A DNA stretch of 64,000 bases from Bacillota bacterium (GTDB taxonomy: Bacteria; Bacillota; Sulfobacillia; JAJZYS01; JAILZS01): assembly GCA_023512375.1 (NCBI GenBank), contig JAILZS010000001.1, positions 62,001-126,000 on the forward strand, in the 5' to 3' direction. A program made the translations under genes and the position numbers. The notes under the pieces are model-generated. The model was given only the letters and a program-made list of their open reading frames with translations, made no database searches and was not told the origin of the DNA. Below, piece after piece: positions 5,217 to 64,000 of the stretch. The stretch's first letter is position 1, and every line of letters starts with the position of its first letter.

Positions 5217-6080
5217 GTGAGCGCGATGGGCGGTCACGAGCGGTTGACGGCGCTCGGCCCCGTGCTCGGGGCGGCGGTGGCGGTCCGCCTGGGGGCGGTG
5301 GTCGGGCGGCCGATGGAGGTGCAGGTGGCGGACGCCGGCGCCCCCCTCCCCGCGGGCCCGGGCGATCTCGAGGCGGCCGTGGCCTGGACGCTCGGGAGCG
5401 AGGAGGGCCACCGGGGCAGCGTCGCCGTTGCGGAGGAGGACGTGCGCGTCCTGGCCGGCCTGGAAGGGGAGGGCGAGGGCGCGGGAGGTGCGGCGCCCGA
5501 GTACGCCCGCCGCCTCGCCCAGGCGGTGGTGGCTGGGCTGGCGGAGGCGGCCACCACCCTGGTGGGCGACCCCGTGCACGCCCAGGTGGTGGAGGAGGCG
5601 GTGGGCGGCGAAGGGCCGCCCGGGGTGGGGGTGCTCCTTCAGGCGCGGGTGCGCGACGTGTTCGAGGCCCACGTGCGCGTCGTCCTCCCCCGCCCGTTGG
5701 CCGACGCCCTGGTGGCGGCGGCGCCGCCCGGGCCGGTGGCCGTCCGCCCCGCCCGCTTCCCCGCCTTCGGCCCCGACCAGGCGGCGGGGGAGAGCGCGGG
5801 CATGGAGCGGGTGCTCGACGTCCCCCTGACGCTCACGGTGGAGCTGGGCAGGACCACGAAGCGGGTGAAGGAGCTCCTGCAGATCGTGCCCGGGAGCGTG
5901 CTCGAGCTCGACCGGCTGGCGGGCGAACCGCTGGACATCTACGCCAACCAGGAGTGGGTGGCGCGCGGCGAGGTGGTGGTGGTGGACGAGACGTTCGCCA
6001 TCCGCGTCACGCAGGTGGGCTCCGGCAGCCCCCTGGGGTCGGAGGCGGGGGAGGGGGGCGGCGCATGGGGGCCACGGTGA
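5217..6080 (+). CDS. fliN: Flagellar motor switch protein FliN/FliY-like
   Basis: 287 aa. The last 80 residues are a clear FliN SPOA domain (VLDVPLTLTVELGRTTKRVK, PGSVLELDRLAGEPLDIYAN). The first 180 residues look like a diverged CheC-type domain, so the layout is that of FliY rather than short FliN. The phosphatase motif of FliY/CheC is not obvious, so enzymatic activity is doubtful. GTG 5217 is used; ATG 5226 is an alternative. It forms the lower C-ring with FliM. Confidence 0.9.
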   Translation: MSAMGGHERLTALGPVLGAAVAVRLGAVVGRPMEVQVADAGAPLPAGPGDLEAAVAWTLGSEEGHRGSVAVAEEDVRVLAGLEGEGEGAGGAAPEYARRLAQAVVAGLAEAATTLVGDPVHAQVVEEAVGGEGPPGVGVLLQARVRDVFEAHVRVVLPRPLADALVAAAPPGPVAVRPARFPAFGPDQAAGESAGMERVLDVPLTLTVELGRTTKRVKELLQIVPGSVLELDRLAGEPLDIYANQEWVARGEVVVVDETFAIRVTQVGSGSPLGSEAGEGGGAWGPR

Positions 6081-8596: not shown

Positions 8597-9685
8597 ATGG
8601 CGATGGCCGACCCCGATCGGGAGCGGCGAACGCTTCCGGCCACGCCGCGCCGGCGGGAGGAGATGCGCCGGCGGGGGCTGGTGCCGCGCTCGCCCGACGT
8701 CGCCCCCGCGTTGGGGGTGGCGGGGCTGCTCGTCGCCGTCCTCTCCCTTGCCCCCGCCGCCCCCGGTCTGGCGCGGACGGTGGCGAGGGCGCTGATGGCG
8801 GCCGGCGACCCCCGCCCCCTCACGCCCGAAGGGGCGGTGGCGGACATGATGGCCCTCGGCGCTGCCGGCGCCCGCGCCGCCCTCCCCGTCCTCGCGCTAG
8901 CCTGGGCGCTGGTGGCGGCCGGCCTGGTGGCGGTGCAGGGGGTGACGTTCGTCTTTCCGAGCGGCGGCCTCGCCCGCCTCAACCCCATGCAGGGCCTGAC
9001 CCGCATCGCCTCGCGCCAGGCGTTGGGCGGGCTGGGCCTCGCCCTGCTCAAGCTGGCGGGGGCGGCGGTGGCGGGGGCGGCGGTGCTGGCCGGGCCGCTG
9101 GTCGCGTGGGCGCACCACCCCTTGGCCGACCCGGTGGCCAGCCTGGACGCGTTCCGGGGCACGCTCACCGCCCTGGCCGCCTCCCTGGCCGGGGTGGGCG
9201 CCGTGGTGGGCGCGGCGGGCGCGCTCCAGGCCCGGCGCCGGTACGAGGCCGACCTGAGGATGACGCCGGAGGAGCTCCGGGAGGAGATGCGGCGCAACGA
9301 GGGCGACCCGCAGGTGCGGCGCCGCCGCCTCGGCCAGCACCGGCGGCTCGTGCGCCAGCGCCTGGTGGAGGCGGTGCGGTCCGCAGACGTGGTGGTGGTC
9401 AACCCCACGCACGTGGCGGTGGCGCTCCTCTACCAGCCGGGGCGCATGCCCGCGCCCGAGGTGACCGCCAAGGGGGCGGAGCGGGTGGCCGAGCGCATGC
9501 GGGAGGTGGCGCGCCGGGCGGGGGTGCCCGTGGTGGTCAACCGCCCCCTGGCCCGCGCCCTGTGGCGGGACGTGGAGGTGGGCGGGCGCGTGCCGCCGGC
9601 CCTGTTCGTGGCCGTGGCCGAGGTGCTGGCCTTCGTCTACCGCCAGCGCGGCTACGTCCCGGGGGCGGGGGGTGAGCGGCGGTGA
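8597..9685 (+). CDS. flhB: Flagellar export switch protein FlhB
   Basis: 362 aa with four membrane helices and a cytoplasmic domain containing the self-cleaving NPTH motif (VVVNPTHVAVALLY) near residue 270. The N-terminus carries the PATPRRREEMRRRGLVPRSP pattern (usual form ATPKRRxEARKKGQVAKS). Cleavage at N-P together with FliK switches export from hook to filament substrates. The ATG follows GGAGGT. It overlaps flhA. Confidence 0.97.
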   Translation: MAMADPDRERRTLPATPRRREEMRRRGLVPRSPDVAPALGVAGLLVAVLSLAPAAPGLARTVARALMAAGDPRPLTPEGAVADMMALGAAGARAALPVLALAWALVAAGLVAVQGVTFVFPSGGLARLNPMQGLTRIASRQALGGLGLALLKLAGAAVAGAAVLAGPLVAWAHHPLADPVASLDAFRGTLTALAASLAGVGAVVGAAGALQARRRYEADLRMTPEELREEMRRNEGDPQVRRRRLGQHRRLVRQRLVEAVRSADVVVVNPTHVAVALLYQPGRMPAPEVTAKGAERVAERMREVARRAGVPVVVNRPLARALWRDVEVGGRVPPALFVAVAEVLAFVYRQRGYVPGAGGERR

Positions 9686-54839: not shown

Positions 54840-56003
54840 GTGTCCGCCGATTTCTACCGATTCGATGCCATGCTCACGCTCGAGGAGCGGCAGGTGCGCG
54901 ACGCGGTGCGGGAGTTCGTCGAGCGGGAGGTGCGCCCCGTCATCGGCGCCTGTTGGCGCGAGGGGCGTTTTCCCATCGAGCTCGTGCCGCGCATGGCGGA
55001 GCTGGGGCTCTTCGGCCCCACGTTGCCCGAGCGCTACGGCGGCCTCGACCTGGGGGCGATCCCGTACGGCCTCATGATGCTGGAGCTGGAGCGCGGCGAC
55101 AGCGGCCTGCGCTCGTTCGCCTCCGTGCAGGGGGCGCTCGCCATGTACGCCATCTACCGCTACGGCTCGGAGGAGCAGCGCCAGCGCTGGCTTCCCGCCA
55201 TGGCGCGAGGGGAGAGGATCGGCTGCTTCGGCCTCACCGAGCCGGACGCCGGCTCCGACCCCGGCGCCATGCGCACGCGCGCCCGGCGCGACGGCGACGC
55301 CTACGTCCTGGACGGCGCCAAGCGCTGGATCACGAACGGCAGCATCGCCGACGTGGCGGTGGTTTGGGCGCGCGACGACGAGGGCGAGGTGGCGGGCTTC
55401 CTCGTGGAGCGCGGCACGCCGGGGTTCAGCGCGCCGGAGATCGAGACCAAGGCGTCCATGCGCGCCTCGGTCACCTCCGAGCTCGTGCTCGAGGGCGTAC
55501 GCGTGCCCGCCGACCAGCGCCTGCCGGGGGCGCGGGGCCTGGGGGCGCCGCTCTCCTGCCTGACGCAGGCGCGCTACGGCATCGCCTGGGGGGCCCTGGG
55601 CGCGGCCATCGCCTGCTACGAGGAGGCGCTCGCCTACACGAAGGAGCGCCTCTCCTTCGGGCGCCCGATCGCCGCCGCCCAGCTCACCCAGGAGCGGCTG
55701 GTGGACATGCTCGCCCGCATCGTGCGCGGCCAGCTCCTGGTCCACCGCCTGGGCCAGCTCAAGGACGCGGGCCAGATGACGTATCCCCAGGTGTCGCTGG
55801 CAAAGCGGGAGAACGCCCGTGCCGCCCTGGAGGTGGCGCGCATGGCGCGCGAGCTTCTGGGCGGCAACGGCATCTCCACCGAGTACGGTGCCTTCCGCCA
55901 CATGGCCAACCTGGAGACGGTGGACACGTATGAGGGCACGTACGAGATCCACACCCTCATCGTGGGGCGGGAGATCACGGGCGAGGGGGCCTTCGGCCGC
56001 TGA
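54840..56003 (+). CDS. Acyl-CoA dehydrogenase, glutaryl-CoA dehydrogenase-like
   Basis: 387 aa. FAD-binding blocks are CFGLTEPDAGSDPGAMRT and KRWITNGSIADVAVVWARD. The catalytic Glu lies in VDTYEGTYEIHTLIVGREI, at the position used by GcdH-type enzymes. GNGISTEYGAFRHMANLETV is also GcdH-like. It would oxidise glutaryl- or a short acyl-CoA. No ETF or other catabolic genes are beside it. GTG follows AAAGGGGAG. Confidence 0.85.
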   Translation: MSADFYRFDAMLTLEERQVRDAVREFVEREVRPVIGACWREGRFPIELVPRMAELGLFGPTLPERYGGLDLGAIPYGLMMLELERGDSGLRSFASVQGALAMYAIYRYGSEEQRQRWLPAMARGERIGCFGLTEPDAGSDPGAMRTRARRDGDAYVLDGAKRWITNGSIADVAVVWARDDEGEVAGFLVERGTPGFSAPEIETKASMRASVTSELVLEGVRVPADQRLPGARGLGAPLSCLTQARYGIAWGALGAAIACYEEALAYTKERLSFGRPIAAAQLTQERLVDMLARIVRGQLLVHRLGQLKDAGQMTYPQVSLAKRENARAALEVARMARELLGGNGISTEYGAFRHMANLETVDTYEGTYEIHTLIVGREITGEGAFGR

Positions 56004-56909: not shown

Positions 56910-57551
56910 CTACGCCTCCCCGCCCGAACCCGCCGCCCCTGACGGGTCGTCGCAGTCGCCGCTCGTGCAGTTGGGCGGGAACCCTGGCGGGCAGGGGGGC
57001 AGGCCCTGGACGGTGCATGGGGCCGGGGTGCAGAAGCCGTACGACGGCACGAGGAGCTGGACCGTGGCCACCGACTTGAGGACGAGGCAGACCGTGAGCT
57101 GGCAGCACACGCTCTTGCCGATGATGGCGCAGGGGCCGCAGGAGGTGGAGGCGATGACGCACTCCTGGGTCGTGCCGGCGGGCCCGCACAGGGTCGCGGT
57201 CTTGAGGAAGTTCACCGGCAGGGTGAGGGTGCAGGTGTGGCCGCTGGGGTCGGTGAGGGTGACGGTGAGGGTGAGGGAGACGGCGAAGGTGGCGTTGACG
57301 AAGTCGTCCACGCCCGTGGGGGTCGTCCCCACCAGGTTGCACGAGGAGGCGGTCACGGCGCAGGTGGCGGTCGTGCCGCTCTCGGCCGCGATGTCGCAGC
57401 ACGGCCCGGACGGGATGTTCGTGCACAGGTTGTTGAAGGTCTCGGTCTGGAAGCACGAGTCGTAGACCTTGGTGACCTCGATGCAATCGATCTGCGTGGG
57501 CGCCGGGCAGCCCGACGGCGGGCACGGGCCGGGCACGATGGGGCTCGACAT
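56910..57551 (-). CDS. Cys-rich spore-coat-like protein
   Basis: 213 aa with 22 cysteines (more than 10 percent) and no signal peptide. Two Cys-rich ends flank a Thr/Val-rich middle (FAVSLTLTVTLTD). The start PAPTQIDCIEVTKVYDSC recalls Cys-rich or SPOCS/DUF3794-type proteins of endospore formers, which have VxKVYDSC-like openings. The many cysteines suggest a cross-linked surface layer such as the spore coat. The similarity is from memory. ATG 57551 behind GGAAGGGAGG. It is upstream of a deacetylase gene. Confidence 0.6.
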   Translation of the reverse strand: MSSPIVPGPCPPSGCPAPTQIDCIEVTKVYDSCFQTETFNNLCTNIPSGPCCDIAAESGTTATCAVTASSCNLVGTTPTGVDDFVNATFAVSLTLTVTLTDPSGHTCTLTLPVNFLKTATLCGPAGTTQECVIASTSCGPCAIIGKSVCCQLTVCLVLKSVATVQLLVPSYGFCTPAPCTVQGLPPCPPGFPPNCTSGDCDDPSGAAGSGGEA

Positions 57552-57733: not shown

Positions 57734-58663
57734 TCACTCGACGGCGCTCAGGCCGATGCGCGGATCGAGGAGGGTGTAGACGATGTCGACGGCGATCGTG
57801 GAGGCCACCACCACCGCGCCCACCACGATCACCACCCCCTCGAGGACCGGCAGGTCGTTGGCCAGGATGGCCCCCCATGCGAGGGTGCCGAGGCCCGGGA
57901 TGCCGAACACCTGCTCGGTGACGAGGGCGCTTCCCATGAGCGTGGCCATGTCGAGGCCCGCCATCGTGACGATGGGGCGTACGGCGTTGCGCAGCACGTG
58001 GACGAAGAGGATGCGTCCCGCGCCGACGCCCTTGGCGCGCGCCGTGCGGACGTAGTCTCGCGCGTACTCCTCGAGCACGCTGGAGCGGCCCATGCGGGTG
58101 TAGTAGCCGGCACCGGTGAAGGCGAGGCTGAAGGCGGGTAGGACGAACCAGTCGGGCTGGTTCACGGCCCCGAGGGGGAAGATCGGCAGACGGAAGGCGA
58201 GGAAGTAGAGCAGGATCAGGCCGAGCCAGAAGGAGGGCATGGTGAGGCCCAGGGTGGCCACCACGCTGGCCAGGCCGTCGATGGCCGTCCCCTGGCGCAG
58301 GGCGGCGATGAGGCCGAGCGTCACGCCGATGAGGAGTTCGCCCACAACCGCCGCCACCACGAGCTCCACCGTGTAGGGCAGGGCGTCCCCCAGCGCCTGG
58401 GCCACCGGCTGGTTCGTGCCGTAGTTGACCCCGAAGTCGCCGTGGGCGAGGCCCCACACGTAGTGCGCGTATTGCACGGGCAGCGGGCGATCGAGGCCGA
58501 GCTGGCGCCGGATGCTGGCCACCACCTGGGCCGGGGCGTTGCGCCCTGCGATCGCCCGGGCGGGGTTGATCGGCATCACGTAGCCGATGACGAACACCAG
58601 CGTGACGATGCCGAGCATGACCCCGACACCGCTCAACAGGCGGCGCACGACGAACCGGAACAT
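57734..58663 (-). CDS. Peptide/oligosaccharide ABC permease, DppB type
   Basis: 309 aa, six membrane segments. MFRFVVRRLLSGVGVMLGI, the periplasmic region RRQLGLDRPLPVQYAHYVWG then GDFGVNYGTNQPVAQAL, and EYARDYVRTARAKGVGAGRI (the EAA loop) are the DppB/OppB signature. It follows the DppC-type gene by 24 bp. Substrate cannot be read from the permease; neighbours suggest an amino-sugar compound. ATP-binding genes are not in the window. Confidence 0.9.
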   Translation of the reverse strand: MFRFVVRRLLSGVGVMLGIVTLVFVIGYVMPINPARAIAGRNAPAQVVASIRRQLGLDRPLPVQYAHYVWGLAHGDFGVNYGTNQPVAQALGDALPYTVELVVAAVVGELLIGVTLGLIAALRQGTAIDGLASVVATLGLTMPSFWLGLILLYFLAFRLPIFPLGAVNQPDWFVLPAFSLAFTGAGYYTRMGRSSVLEEYARDYVRTARAKGVGAGRILFVHVLRNAVRPIVTMAGLDMATLMGSALVTEQVFGIPGLGTLAWGAILANDLPVLEGVVIVVGAVVVASTIAVDIVYTLLDPRIGLSAVE

Positions 58664-58687: not shown

Positions 58688-59596
58688 CTACGCGCGCATC
58701 TCCATGGCGTCCCTGAGCGCGTCTCCCAGGAGGTTGAAGCCGAGGACGGACAGCCCGAGCGTCGCGCCCGGCACGATCATGAGCCGGGGGGCGCTCGTCA
58801 GGTACTGGCTGCCGGCGGCGATCATGTTGCCCCAGGAGGGCGCGGGCGGCTGGACGCCGATGCCGATGAAACCGAGCGAGGCGGTGAAGGTGGCCGTCGT
58901 CGAGAACTCAAGCGTCATGTACACGACGGCCGTGCCCCACACCTGGCGCATGACGTGCCGCCATAGCGTGCGGGCGTGCGTGGCCCCCATGGCGCGGGCC
59001 GCCTCGACGAACTCGAGCCCCTTCACCGCCAGCACCTCGGCGCGCACGATGCGCGCCAGGTAGAACCAGTTCACTGCCCCGATGATGAGGATGAGGGTCA
59101 GGGGCGAAGGGCGCATGACCAGCGCCAGGAAGGCGGCGAGGAGGACCGTGGGCACGGCGAGGAGGACCTCCGTCACGCGCATGAGGACGGCGTCCACCCA
59201 GCCGCCGTAGTAGCCGGCCAAGCCGCCGAACAGGGTGCCCACCGCCGTCGCCAGGAGGTTGGCCAGGAGCGCGATCGCCAGCGTGTTGCGCGTGCCCCAG
59301 AGGAGGCGGCTGAGAAGGTCGCGGCCGAGCTCGTCCGTCCCCAGGGGAAAGGCGGCGCTGGGCCCGAGCGGCGCGCCGTCGGGGGCGAGGCCGTTGGGGA
59401 ACTGGTAGTAGGGCGAGTGGGGGGCAAGGACCGGGGCAAGGAGCGCCACGGCCACGAAGGCGAGGGTGATGGCGAGGCCGAGCGCGCCGAGCGGTCGGCG
59501 CCTGAGCCGCCGCCACACCCGCAGGGCCGAGGGCGCGCCGGCGTCGGCGTCCGGGAAGCCGGGCGCGGCCACCGACCCGGCGGCGCGCATGGGCAC
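58688..59596 (-). CDS. Peptide/oligosaccharide ABC permease, DppC type
   Basis: 302 aa. RRRPLGALGLAITLAFVAVA, then HSPYYQFPNGLAPDGAPLGP and FPLGTDELGRDLLSRLLWGT are hallmark DppC/OppC sequences. The EAA loop is FVEAARAMGATHARTLWRHV. GTG 59596 or ATG 59590 starts it, behind GAAGGAGGG. The order C then B is reversed from the usual dpp order. It is driven from a strong promoter at 59705-59732. Confidence 0.9.
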   Translation of the reverse strand: MPMRAAGSVAAPGFPDADAGAPSALRVWRRLRRRPLGALGLAITLAFVAVALLAPVLAPHSPYYQFPNGLAPDGAPLGPSAAFPLGTDELGRDLLSRLLWGTRNTLAIALLANLLATAVGTLFGGLAGYYGGWVDAVLMRVTEVLLAVPTVLLAAFLALVMRPSPLTLILIIGAVNWFYLARIVRAEVLAVKGLEFVEAARAMGATHARTLWRHVMRQVWGTAVVYMTLEFSTTATFTASLGFIGIGVQPPAPSWGNMIAAGSQYLTSAPRLMIVPGATLGLSVLGFNLLGDALRDAMEMRA

Positions 59597-59684: not shown

Positions 59685-59712
59685 TTGACTGCGAGGATGA
59701 CTTCAGCATAAT
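59685..59712 (+). promoter_or_regulatory. Promoter of the solute-binding protein gene
   Basis: TTGACT (-35) and CATAAT (-10) are spaced 16 bp and each match consensus at five of six positions. It faces the gene starting at 59764, with a leader near 45 nt. Its -10 overlaps the -10 of the divergent promoter. Confidence 0.7.
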
Positions 59713-59732
59713 GACCTAAGGACTTTTGTCAA
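59705..59732 (-). promoter_or_regulatory. Promoter of the Dpp-type permease genes
   Basis: On the minus strand TTGACA (-35, perfect) and TATGCT (-10, four of six) are spaced 16 bp. It points to the DppC-type gene, about 100 bp away. The -10 boxes of the two promoters share 4 bp, so they probably compete for polymerase. Confidence 0.7.
59713..59730. promoter_or_regulatory. Palindromic operator GACnnAAGnnCTTnnGTC
   Basis: GACCTAAGGACTTTTGTC reads as a perfect half-site palindrome at 12 of 18 positions. It covers the -35 and spacer of the minus promoter and sits just after the -10 of the plus promoter, so one bound dimer would block both. The GntR/HutC regulator encoded at 61484 is the natural candidate. 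Confidence 0.6.
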
Positions 59733-59763
59733 CCGCAGCGGGCGCTGCGAAAGGATGAGGGGA

Positions 59764-61377
59764 ATGTCGCGATCTACCGCCAGAGTGCTTCCGGCCGCCG
59801 CGGCGGCGCTCCTCCTGGTCGGCGCGGGACCGGTGACGGCCTCGGCCGCGAACGCCCACCGGGCCCAGGCGGCCAGGGCGATCACGGCCGAGATCAGCTC
59901 CGACCCGACGTCGCTCGACCCCGCCGTCGGCTTCGACCCCTTCTCGTGGTCCTTCATCCATGCGACGTTCGTCAGCCTGCTTACGTTCAACGACAAGAAT
60001 CTGAAGATTGTGCCCTGGGGCGCGGCGGCCATGCCGACCGTGAGCGACGGGGGCCGCGTCTACACGTTCCACCTGCGCCACGGCCTTCGGTTCAGCGACG
60101 GCGAGCCGGTCACGGCGAGCGACTACGCTCTTGCCATCGACCGGATCCTCACGCCGTCCACGAAGTCGCTCGTGATGGCGTTCTACGACGTGATCCAGGG
60201 GGCGTCGGCCTACTCGAGCGGCAAGGCGAAGAGCGTGTCGGGGATGAAGGTCCTCGGCCCCTACACGCTCCAGTTCACCCTCGTGCGGCCCGACCGCACC
60301 TTCCTCGACGTGATGGCCATCCCCAACACGGCGGCCGTCCCCCCTAAGGCGCTGGCGAAGGAGCCGCGCACGTTCGGCCTCCACCCCGTGGGCGACGGGC
60401 CGTACGTCGTGCAGAGCTACGTGCCCGGGCGGGAGATCACGCTGGCGAAGAACCCCTCGTACTTCGACGCCCGTTCCGTCCCCACCCCGGCCATCGACGT
60501 CACGATCGGCCTTACGCCGACGACCGAAGCGTTGCGCGTCGAGGACGGCACCACGGACGTCATGATGGACACCCTGCCCACCAGCGTCTACCTGGGCGTG
60601 TACAACAACCCTCGCTACCAGGCGTACCTGCGCCACTTCAGCGCCATCACGGACAACTACGTCGCCCTCAACATGCGCAAGGCCCCGTTCACGAACAAGC
60701 TCGTGCGCGAGGCGGCCGCGTACGCGGTGGACCGAGTCCAGGTCCTGCGCGCCATCTCGGGGCTGGGCACGATCCTGACGCAGATCGAGGCCCCGGGGAT
60801 GCCCGGCTTCGACCCCTCCGTCAAGCCCCTTCCCTACGACCCGGCGAAGGCCCGCAAGCTCCTGGCCGAGGCCGGCTACCCGGGTGGCAAGGGCCTGCCC
60901 ACGATCACCTTTGCCGACGCGTCGGGCGGGTTCACGGCCGGGCCCAACGTCGCCCAGGTCGTGCAGCAGGACCTGGAACAGGTGGGCTTCAAGGTGCAGA
61001 TCAAGGTGATGTCTGCTGGGGCCTTCCTCAGCGCCGTCGGCCAGTACCCGATGACGATGGGCATCTACGGCATGGACTATCCCGATCCGTACGACCTCAT
61101 CGCCAGCCAGTTCGAGTGCAGCGAGATCGCGGCGGGCAACAACTGGCAGTACTACTGCAACCCCTCGGTCGACCGGGCGCTGGAGGCGTCGCTCAGCCTG
61201 CCGCTGTCCAAGGCGATCCCGGTGTACCGCCGGCTGCAGGCCGAGATCCTCTCCTCCTACCCGTGGATCCCCCTCTACTACACGAACTACTGGTTCCTCG
61301 TGAACCCGGCGCTGCGGGGTTTCGGGTCCAACCCCGTCTTCCCCATGCTCTTCGCCTCCTGGCGCCTGAGCGGTTGA
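59764..61377 (+). CDS. ABC transporter solute-binding protein, family 5 (SBP_bac_5)
   Basis: 537 aa. Signal peptide (VLPAAAAALLLVGAGPVTAS); no lipobox Cys is apparent. ISSDPTSLDPAVGFDPFSWS and TFHLRHGLRFSDGEPVTASD, then LNMRKAPFTNKLVREAAAYA are DppA/OppA-like. Such proteins bind peptides, nickel, or chito- and cello-oligosaccharides. ATG 59764 has AAGGATGAGG upstream; 59755 is the track start. It is divergent from the permeases and is followed by a GntR regulator. Confidence 0.9.
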   Translation: MSRSTARVLPAAAAALLLVGAGPVTASAANAHRAQAARAITAEISSDPTSLDPAVGFDPFSWSFIHATFVSLLTFNDKNLKIVPWGAAAMPTVSDGGRVYTFHLRHGLRFSDGEPVTASDYALAIDRILTPSTKSLVMAFYDVIQGASAYSSGKAKSVSGMKVLGPYTLQFTLVRPDRTFLDVMAIPNTAAVPPKALAKEPRTFGLHPVGDGPYVVQSYVPGREITLAKNPSYFDARSVPTPAIDVTIGLTPTTEALRVEDGTTDVMMDTLPTSVYLGVYNNPRYQAYLRHFSAITDNYVALNMRKAPFTNKLVREAAAYAVDRVQVLRAISGLGTILTQIEAPGMPGFDPSVKPLPYDPAKARKLLAEAGYPGGKGLPTITFADASGGFTAGPNVAQVVQQDLEQVGFKVQIKVMSAGAFLSAVGQYPMTMGIYGMDYPDPYDLIASQFECSEIAAGNNWQYYCNPSVDRALEASLSLPLSKAIPVYRRLQAEILSSYPWIPLYYTNYWFLVNPALRGFGSNPVFPMLFASWRLSG

Positions 61378-61483
61378 GCGCGCCCAAGCCGCGCGGCGCG
61401 GGGACCGCAGCACCGGGGGGGAGATCCTGGTATGCTAGGCCCGAACGCCGTCCCGGGTGCGGGATTCGGCGCGGAGGAGAGCC

Positions 61484-62251
61484 ATGACGCGGTACGAGCA
61501 CACCATGCGCGTGATCCAGCAGTACATCGCCGAGCACCAGCTGGGCCCCGGCGACCGCCTGCCCGCCGAGACGGAGCTGGCCCAGATCGCCGGCGTAAGC
61601 CTGATCACGGTGCGCCGCGCCATGGCCGAGATGGCCAACCGGGGCCTGGTACGGCGCGAGCAGGGGAGAGGCTCGTACGTCGAGGCCACGCTCATCGACG
61701 CCGAGACGACGCGCCTGGGCAGCCTGCGCGAGACGCTGGGCGGACACCACGCCCTGACCACCGAGATCCTGGGCGTGGTGGAGCGGGCGGCAACCGAGCG
61801 CGAGCAGGCGGCGCTCCGGCTCTCGCGCCTGGGGCGGGTGTGGGAGGTGACGCGCCGAAGGCTCATCGACGGCGAACCGGCCATCGTCGAGGTGGCGACG
61901 GTGCCGACGCTCAAGGCGCCCGCCCTGGACGCCGCCCTGGGGGCCGACCCGAACGTGTCCCTCTACCGCCTCTTGGCGGAGCGCTACGGCTTGGAAGAGG
62001 GGCATGAGGAGCAGACCCTGGTCGTGCGCCTGCCCGATACGACGACGCGGGAGCGCCTGGGGCTTGGGCCGGGGGACCTCGCGGTCGTGGTCACGGGCGT
62101 GAGCTACGCCCTCGACGGCCAGCCGTTCGACGCCTTCCGCATGGCCTACGACGCCCGCCGCTTCGCCTTCCACCTGCGGTCGACACCGCAGGCGGCACTG
62201 GTGGCCGTCACGCGCGACATCGCCTCCGCCGGGCGGTCGAAGACCGGCTAG
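61484..62251 (+). CDS. GntR/HutC-family transcriptional regulator
   Basis: 255 aa. N-terminal winged helix: QYIAEHQLGPGDRLPAETEL, then QIAGVSLITVRRAMAEM and GLVRREQGRGSYV. C-terminal UTRA ligand domain: VWEVTRRRLIDGEPAIVEVA, EERYGLEEGHEEQT-type region and ending with a strand DGQPFDAFRMAYDARRFAFH. This is the NagR/DasR-like group, which senses phosphosugars. ATG 61484 after GGAGGAGAG. Its stop shares CTAG with the convergent NagB-like gene. Confidence 0.9.
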   Translation: MTRYEHTMRVIQQYIAEHQLGPGDRLPAETELAQIAGVSLITVRRAMAEMANRGLVRREQGRGSYVEATLIDAETTRLGSLRETLGGHHALTTEILGVVERAATEREQAALRLSRLGRVWEVTRRRLIDGEPAIVEVATVPTLKAPALDAALGADPNVSLYRLLAERYGLEEGHEEQTLVVRLPDTTTRERLGLGPGDLAVVVTGVSYALDGQPFDAFRMAYDARRFAFHLRSTPQAALVAVTRDIASAGRSKTG

Positions 62252-63006
62252 CCCGCGTTCCCCAGCGCCGGCTCCGGCCCTTGGGCTGCCGGGCGCAGGG
62301 AGCGGTCGGCGGCGACGAGGGCGTCGGGGTGGTCGAGGAGGACGGCGGCCGGCAGGTCCGGGCCCCGCTCCCCCGCCAGGAGGCGGGCGAGCGGGGCCGC
62401 CTTGTTCGCCCCGGCGGCGATGAGCACGACGGCGCGGGCGGAGGCGATCGTCGCCAGCCCCAAGGTGATGGCGCGCTCCGGCACCCGGGCGGCGGCCCCG
62501 AACCAAGCGGCGTTGGCCGCACGCGTGGCCCACGTCAGGGCGACGACACGGGTGCGGCTGTGCGCGGGCGAGCCCGGCTCGTTGAAGGCGATGTGGCCAT
62601 TGGCTCCCAAGCCCAGCACGGCGAGGTCGATGCCGCCTACCGCGGCGATGGCGCGCTCGTACCCGCACGCCTCCGCTTCCGGGTCGGGCGCGTCGCCGCG
62701 GGGGACGTGGACGCGCGCGGGGTCGACGTCGGTGGCGGCGACGAGGTGGCGGCGCACGTAGGCGGCGAAGCTCGACTGGTCCTCGGGGCCGAGGCCCACG
62801 TACTCATCCAGCTGGAAGGCGGTCACTTCGGCCAGGGAGAGCCCTCCCTGCCGCACCAACCGGCTCAGGTGGGCGTACATGGGGAGCGCGCTCCGCCCGG
62901 TGGGTAGGGCGAGGACGGAGCGGGGACGAAGGCGCACCTGGCGGGCGACGATCTCGGCCGCCGCCGTGGCGGCGGCCTGGGCATCGGCGCACCAGAGGAC
63001 GCGCAT
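62248..63006 (-). CDS. nagB: NagB-like glucosamine-6-phosphate deaminase/isomerase
   Basis: 252 aa. LRPRSVLALPTGRSALPMYA is the sugar-phosphate loop, EVTAFQLDEYVGLGPEDQSS carries the catalytic Asp-Glu pair, and LAVLGLGANGHIAFNEPGSP the catalytic His loop. These are NagB/GlcN6P isomerase motifs. It would turn amino-sugar phosphate into fructose phosphate and ammonia. ATG 63006 overlaps the stop of the kinase gene, so the two are coupled. NagA is not in the window. Confidence 0.9.
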   Translation of the reverse strand: MRVLWCADAQAAATAAAEIVARQVRLRPRSVLALPTGRSALPMYAHLSRLVRQGGLSLAEVTAFQLDEYVGLGPEDQSSFAAYVRRHLVAATDVDPARVHVPRGDAPDPEAEACGYERAIAAVGGIDLAVLGLGANGHIAFNEPGSPAHSRTRVVALTWATRAANAAWFGAAARVPERAITLGLATIASARAVVLIAAGANKAAPLARLLAGERGPDLPAAVLLDHPDALVAADRSLRPAAQGPEPALGNAG

Positions 63007-64000
63007 CACGGCCGCTTCCCCCCGTCTAGGGCGGCAGCGCGTGGAAAGGTGCGCACGTGGTCGCGGTAGAGGCCTTCGTACCGCGCGGCGAGGGCGGGAT
63101 CCGGCGTAAGACGGCGCGTGTGCCCGCCCGCCGCGGCGACCAACGCACCGGCGTGGCGCGGGTCGACCGCCGTCGTCCCCGCCAGGAGGGCGGCCCCGAC
63201 CGCGGCCGCCGACTCGTACGCGATCGCGCGCACCGGCCGGGCGAGGACGGCGGCGAGGACGGCCTCGGCCACGGCGCCGTCTCCCTCCCCGACGTGGCCG
63301 TTCGCCAACGCCACCTCGTCGAACGGTCCGACCAGGCGGCCGATGGCCTCCAACGTCCGACGCACCTCGAAGGCGATGCCCTCGACGAGGGCGCGCGCCA
63401 GTTCCGCCGCACCGTGGCGGAGCGTCAGCCCGAGCACGGCTCCGGCCACGTCGTCCCGCCACAGAACGCCCTGCTCGCCGCCCGCCAGGTAGGGCGCCCA
63501 CCGAAGGCCGCCGGCCCCGGGCGGTACGGCAGCGGCGAGGGCCATGAGGTCGCGCTCGTCTCGCCCGACGAGGCGGGCCAGCCACGAGACGCTCGCGCCC
63601 GTGGCCAAGAGGTCGGCCTCGTACCCCCACCAGCCGGGAAGGGCGTGGGGCGTGACCAGGATGCGTGCACGCCGGTCGAGGCGCGGGCGGCGCACGGCGG
63701 CGAGGACGGCGGTGCTCGAACCGGGGATGACGGCCACCGTCCCCTCGGCGAGGGCGCCAACGGCGAGCGCCGCCGCCGTCGAGTCCGCAGCGCCCACCGC
63801 CACCGGCACGCCCACGGGCAGACCGAGCTGCCGGGCGGCCTCCGCCGTGACGCGGCCGCTCCGGTCGTCGGACGGACGTACGGGGGGGAGTTGCCCCACG
63901 TCCATCCCCCAGGGGGCGAGGAGGGCGGGATCGAACGCCCCCTTGGCGAGGGAAAAGGCGCCGTATCCGGCGGCGGTCGACGGGTCGGTGGCCACCTGTC
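63006..64000 (-). CDS. FGGY-family carbohydrate kinase (partial, N-terminus outside window)
   Basis: 331 codons are open to the window edge; the N-terminal third lies beyond it. ATDPSTAAGYGAFSLAKGAF, then VPVAVGAADSTAAALAVGAL, LRWAPYLAGGEQGVLWRDDV and EVALANGHVGEGDGAVAEAV belong to the FGGY fold of gluconate, xylulose and related kinases. Its stop overlaps the NagB-like start (ATGA). Together they suggest phosphorylation then deamination of an imported sugar. The exact substrate is not readable. Confidence 0.88.
   Translation of the reverse strand, partial: QVATDPSTAAGYGAFSLAKGAFDPALLAPWGMDVGQLPPVRPSDDRSGRVTAEAARQLGLPVGVPVAVGAADSTAAALAVGALAEGTVAVIPGSSTAVLAAVRRPRLDRRARILVTPHALPGWWGYEADLLATGASVSWLARLVGRDERDLMALAAAVPPGAGGLRWAPYLAGGEQGVLWRDDVAGAVLGLTLRHGAAELARALVEGIAFEVRRTLEAIGRLVGPFDEVALANGHVGEGDGAVAEAVLAAVLARPVRAIAYESAAAVGAALLAGTTAVDPRHAGALVAAAGGHTRRLTPDPALAARYEGLYRDHVRTFPRAAALDGGKRP

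Follow-up and report, generated by a model that had tools for sequence, protein, structure and literature searches.

A predicted two-way promoter with a candidate GntR repressor site on its shared -10 box in a split Dpp-type transporter cluster

Introduction

Bidirectional promoters in which the -10 elements of opposite strands overlap are common in bacteria (Warman, Grainger and colleagues; PMC12825309, PMC10268837). They have been defined by pairs of transcription starts that lie 7-25 bp apart, with 18 bp the commonest spacing (PMC10268837, PMC12825309), and competition between polymerases has been found to matter at these sites only if transcription in one direction is strong (PMC12825309). 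Little work has addressed how bidirectional promoters are controlled (PMC12825309). At one such promoter both RNAs are repressed by AcrR (PMC12825309), and among regulators of the HutC subfamily single sites in divergons usually lie mid-way and serve both operons (PMC4494728).

The locus described here lies in a 64-kb window, the whole stretch of DNA that we analyzed, between a Dpp-type permease operon on the minus strand and, on the plus strand, the gene for a substrate-binding protein followed by that of a HutC-type GntR regulator. As a two-way promoter it adds a clean case to a kind of element that is already known. Like the described cases it has overlapping -10 elements on opposite strands, with polymerase occupancy that would be mutually exclusive, and its predicted starts, near A59719 (plus) and 59698 (minus), are 21 bp apart and thus within the 7-25 bp range; for the action of one repressor on both RNAs, AcrR is a precedent. 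It differs from them in that the spacing of these predicted starts is 21 and not the commonest 18 bp, in that both -35 boxes are strong, and in its host, whose lineage is GC-rich and has no close relatives in the collection. The likeness to HutC divergons such as those of NagR/YvoA and DasR resides in a regulator with a GntR helix-turn-helix (HTH) and a UTRA domain, in neighbors of amino-sugar type and in a single intergenic site from which both operons could be controlled. Unlike in those divergons, the candidate operator CAGTATAATGAC does not fit GTMTAKAC, HTH position 38 holds a Leu in place of the base-contacting Arg, and the candidate site coincides with the shared -10.

Results

The 48-bp core at 59685-59732 reads TTGACTGCGAGGATGACTTCAGCATAATGACCTAAGGACTTTTGTCAA and has a GC content of 42%, compared with 74% across the window. 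On the plus strand, upstream of the substrate-binding protein gene, a -35 box TTGACT (59685-59690) and a -10 box CATAAT (59707-59712) are separated by 16 bp; on the minus strand, upstream of the permease genes, a perfect -35 box TTGACA (59732-59727) and a -10 box TATGCT (59710-59705) have the same spacing. Each of the two promoters (59685-59712 and 59705-59732) scores 10/12. They have in common the 4 bp CATA of both -10 boxes (59707-59710), and boxes, spacers and overlap are exactly as a sequence-only reading of this DNA had described them. Across the full 64 kb, a scan that allowed 15-19 bp between the boxes, with a cut-off of 9/12, found these two sigma-70-like sites and no others, and a tool scan of 9 kb returned two promoter-like sites where 0.3 were expected. 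Both promoters are real sequence features, far beyond chance. Their overlapping -10 elements each carry an A at -11 and a T at -7, as bidirectional promoters do, and the overlap supports the earlier idea of a compact divergent switch that would admit one polymerase at a time. Face-to-face TTGAC...GTCAA pairs were rejected as a genome-wide class; they occur at three places in the genome versus two in a reversed control, and only the window pair has -10-like words inside.

The plus-strand genes encode an SBP_bac_5 substrate-binding protein of a Dpp/Opp-type ABC transporter (59755-61377, with 59764 also possible as the start) and the GntR regulator (61484-62251), while the minus strand encodes a DppC-type permease (BPD_transp_1 and OppC_N; 58688-59596) and a DppB-type permease (57734-58663). 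One SBP_bac_5 protein together with two BPD_transp_1 permeases identifies a Dpp/Opp-type ABC transporter. The DppC gene begins with GTG at 59596 and has AAGGAGGG upstream, and hence a proper gene start lies ahead of the minus promoter. Convergent with the binding-protein and GntR genes are minus-strand genes for a glucosamine-6-phosphate deaminase-like protein (NagB; 62248-63030) and an FGGY carbohydrate kinase (63006-64000, extending beyond the window end to position 9505 of locus L034, in which position p equals window position 55000+p). Beyond the window, a class-III aminotransferase gene (L034 10830-9490) is the first of the operon that it forms with the kinase and NagB genes. Given this layout, we think it likely that the plus promoter drives the substrate-binding protein gene and the minus promoter the permeases, starting near the positions given above, and the 48-base stretch is predicted, with similar confidence, to drive an uptake system for sugars or peptides on either side.

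Other elements of the neighborhood deserve mention. A possible extended -10 promoter, TGGTATGCT, precedes the GntR gene at 61415-61440, and this gene may therefore also have a transcript of its own. On the minus strand, an open reading frame at 56910-57462 encodes a Cys-rich product (MSSPIVPGPCPPSGCPAPTQIDC...) that has no Pfam match over the part tested and by eye looks like spore-coat or exosporium-type proteins. Outside the window, at L034 13808-17585 (equivalent to window 68808-72585), a second Dpp-type transporter, comprising a binding protein and two permeases, adjoins an S9 peptidase and a beta-lactamase-family hydrolase.

Among 60 relatives the best matches to the binding protein reached 39%, and we found no close relatives suitable for footprinting in the sample of its own order or phylum. 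A collection of species genomes held two loci at 65-67% to the binding protein, L032 in genome G061 (titled Actinomycetes bacterium) and L033 in G062 (titled Candidatus Dormiibacterota), and further comparison loci were taken from relatives of these two genomes. In both loci the genes for the binding protein, DppC and DppB follow each other in one direction, and L032 continues with genes for a GntR regulator, an aminotransferase and an FGGY kinase. A cluster of aminotransferase, GntR and FGGY kinase genes is also present in G062, G449, G463 and G617, with a gene for a SIS-domain sugar isomerase divergent or nearby. Of the three transporter carriers only the window genome has inverted permeases, and no counterpart of the minus promoter was found in L032 or L033, from which we infer that the two-way promoter is probably the derived state. 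The closest relatives of the transporter occur in genomes labeled as different phyla (the window genome G000, G061 and G062) and are missing from the sampled neighbors of each, which suggests horizontal transfer. In G463, the stretch between the divergent SIS and aminotransferase genes (L065 9075-9105) reads AGCATATAGAGTATGCT; it contains two TATGCT -10-like words arranged as an inverted repeat, one of them preceded at 17 bp by TTGCAC, and may represent a further two-way promoter, in a related cluster.

The word that covers the shared -10 is found at each of the cluster's two promoters and again in related clusters. In the window it takes the form TTCAGCATAATGAC (59702-59715), with the core CAGCATAATGAC at 59704-59715, and is a variant of GTCAgTATAaTGAC at the linked aminotransferase promoter. 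Pattern searches of the 2.68-Mb genome found exactly two matches to CAG[C/T]ATAATGAC, the window core and the promoter of the aminotransferase-kinase-NagB operon, which reads AAGTCAGTATAATGACATC on the gene strand; the exact places of CAGYATAATGAC are C98:121704 (window 59704) and C98:127857 (the aminotransferase operon promoter). The exact word occurs once in the G061 genome, between the GntR gene and the orthologous aminotransferase gene (72% identical), and this copy is reversed relative to the aminotransferase gene, an orientation that fits a palindromic operator. Between the divergent SIS and aminotransferase genes, G449 has CAGTATGATGAC, with one mismatch, and G062 has CAGTATGATGAG, forms that match at 10-11 of 12 positions. 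Each of the five motif sites outscored every one of the 400 shuffles of the region that holds it. The same test was failed by the binding-protein regions of G061 and G062 and by G463 and G617: the motif is weak or absent upstream of the two binding-protein genes and in G463, and was not found upstream of the G617 aminotransferase gene. The upstream region of the window GntR gene itself has no match.

The full form of the motif, GTCAnTATAnTGAC, is palindromic, and the TATA at its center is exactly the 4 bp common to both -10 boxes, with TATAAT as the -10 word on one strand and TATACT or TATGCT on the other. The operator candidate and the two-way -10 thus consist of identical letters. The window version, TTCAgCATAaTGAC, is centered between 59708 and 59709 and keeps 4 of 7 symmetric pairs, compared with 6 of 7 in the aminotransferase copy.

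The regulator has features that bear on such a site. Its protein combines a winged helix (PF00392, E 2e-15) with a UTRA domain (PF07702, E 3.5e-24), the architecture of the HutC subfamily, and DasR and YvoA are the nearest solved structures. The usual HutC consensus, GTMTAKAC/GTNTANAC, was rejected as the operator; GTMTAKAC is absent, at up to one mismatch, from the three intergenic regions of the cluster, and the subfamily is known to include exceptions to this consensus. HTH position 38 is equivalent to FadR Arg-45, which makes a specific contact to G, and an Arg there is usual in the HutC subfamily, if not strictly required. The window protein and four relatives have Leu at this position, whereas the G617 protein has Arg. 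Because GTMTAKAC is absent, the replacement of Arg by Leu fits a non-canonical operator, the contrast with Arg being provided by one genome, G617. The helix GVSLITVRRA is common to five orthologs, the window protein included, among them the regulators that adjoin the motif; the G617 regulator reads SRITVTRA, and its region lacks the motif.

Since the motif includes the -10 hexamer, it owes some of its conservation to that of the promoter. The locus could thus be a bidirectional promoter without a dedicated operator on the -10, in which CAG-ATAAT-GAC represents a conserved -10 and discriminator and regulation, if any, takes place elsewhere or through polymerase competition. In keeping with this alternative, the binding-protein promoters of G061 and G062 have another word in common, GGTGATATACACA, which is identical at L032 1125-1137 and L033 about 5924-5936, unique in each genome, and overlaps a word that departs from the HutC consensus at one position. 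The shared word GGTGATATACACA is absent from the window genome at up to one mismatch and was rejected as an explanation of the window site for that reason. Several findings nonetheless make an operator-free promoter unlikely, although it is an alternative to be taken seriously. The CAG/GAC flanks are kept at 29 of 30 positions across the five sites, the exact word is confined to the cluster in G000 and G061, and the G061 aminotransferase copy is reversed relative to its gene. Moreover, an unsupervised search for the best common 12-mer over eight upstream regions returned the same motif with a score of 99.9, compared with 55.9 +/- 2.6 (maximum 62.4) in dinucleotide shuffles, 68 +/- 7 in shuffles with a realistic -10 planted in every region and 84 +/- 5 (maximum 95.9) when a perfect TATAAT was planted in all eight. 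In this sample of about six clusters, some of common ancestry, conservation therefore exceeds that of a -10 box, by a small margin over the harshest control.

The sequence-only reading had placed a shared operator elsewhere, on the palindrome GACCTAAGGACTTTTGTC directly after the -10 boxes (59713-59730). The word GACnnAAGnnCTTnnGTC is indeed present there, between the -10 and -35 boxes of the minus promoter and over the plus start; it is well positioned to block both promoters, and part of it is the minus -35 box. Its symmetry is at chance level: 6 of 9 arm pairs are complementary, and an 18-mer at least as good arises in 34% of shuffled versions of the 48-bp core and in 93% of those of the intergenic region. 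The proposed search for further copies yielded none beyond the window copy in the 2.68-Mb genome, the linked aminotransferase operon included, and at up to 3 mismatches the word was absent upstream of all orthologous genes. With chance-level symmetry, a single copy and no conservation, GACnnAAGnnCTTnnGTC was rejected, and an operator at this place is improbable. What survives of the proposal is that the product of the adjoining GntR gene could shut both promoters from one site; we judge this site likely to be the shared -10 core itself, 13 bp from the axis of the palindrome.

It is also very improbable that one promoter alone is active in the cell and the other a weak or antisense side effect of the symmetric -10 since, even though bidirectional promoters often yield one non-coding RNA (PMC10268837) and both 16-bp spacers are slightly short, the minus TTGACA is perfect, the plus pair scores 10/12, and in either direction there lie genes that have start signals and require a promoter.

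Discussion

Our analysis argues for a bidirectional sigma-70-type promoter whose overlapping -10 boxes lie inside an imperfect palindrome, the predicted operator of the adjoining HutC-type GntR regulator, and on balance we favor this model. RNA polymerase would load in either direction and never in both at once, with one transcript encoding the substrate-binding protein and probably, farther downstream, the regulator, and the opposite transcript encoding the DppC-DppB permease. When the inducing substrate is lacking, a GntR dimer on the common -10 would block both transcripts and thereby both halves of the transporter and the regulator, and GntR would have the same effect at the equivalent site upstream of the aminotransferase-FGGY kinase-NagB operon. 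The substrate or its phosphorylated product, a ligand that would be of amino-sugar type, would act at the UTRA domain to release GntR, after which polymerase would take the two directions one at a time. Binding by the window GntR, repression and induction seem to us reasonably likely, judging from the gene layout and the recurring motif.

These data also raise the possibility, which we put forward tentatively, that a HutC branch with Leu at HTH position 38 reads a non-canonical palindrome that is itself the two-way -10, such that repressor and polymerase compete for the same letters, and that in this lineage the operator predated the permease inversion by which the promoter became two-way.

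The locus offers a natural comparison, with the transporter genes of distant genomes running one way and those described here split around a two-way promoter that has an apparent repressor site in its -10. This case lets one ask how a one-way promoter turns into a two-way promoter and whether an operator on the -10 eases that step, and it points to an operator of non-canonical but predictable type in a small branch of the GntR family.
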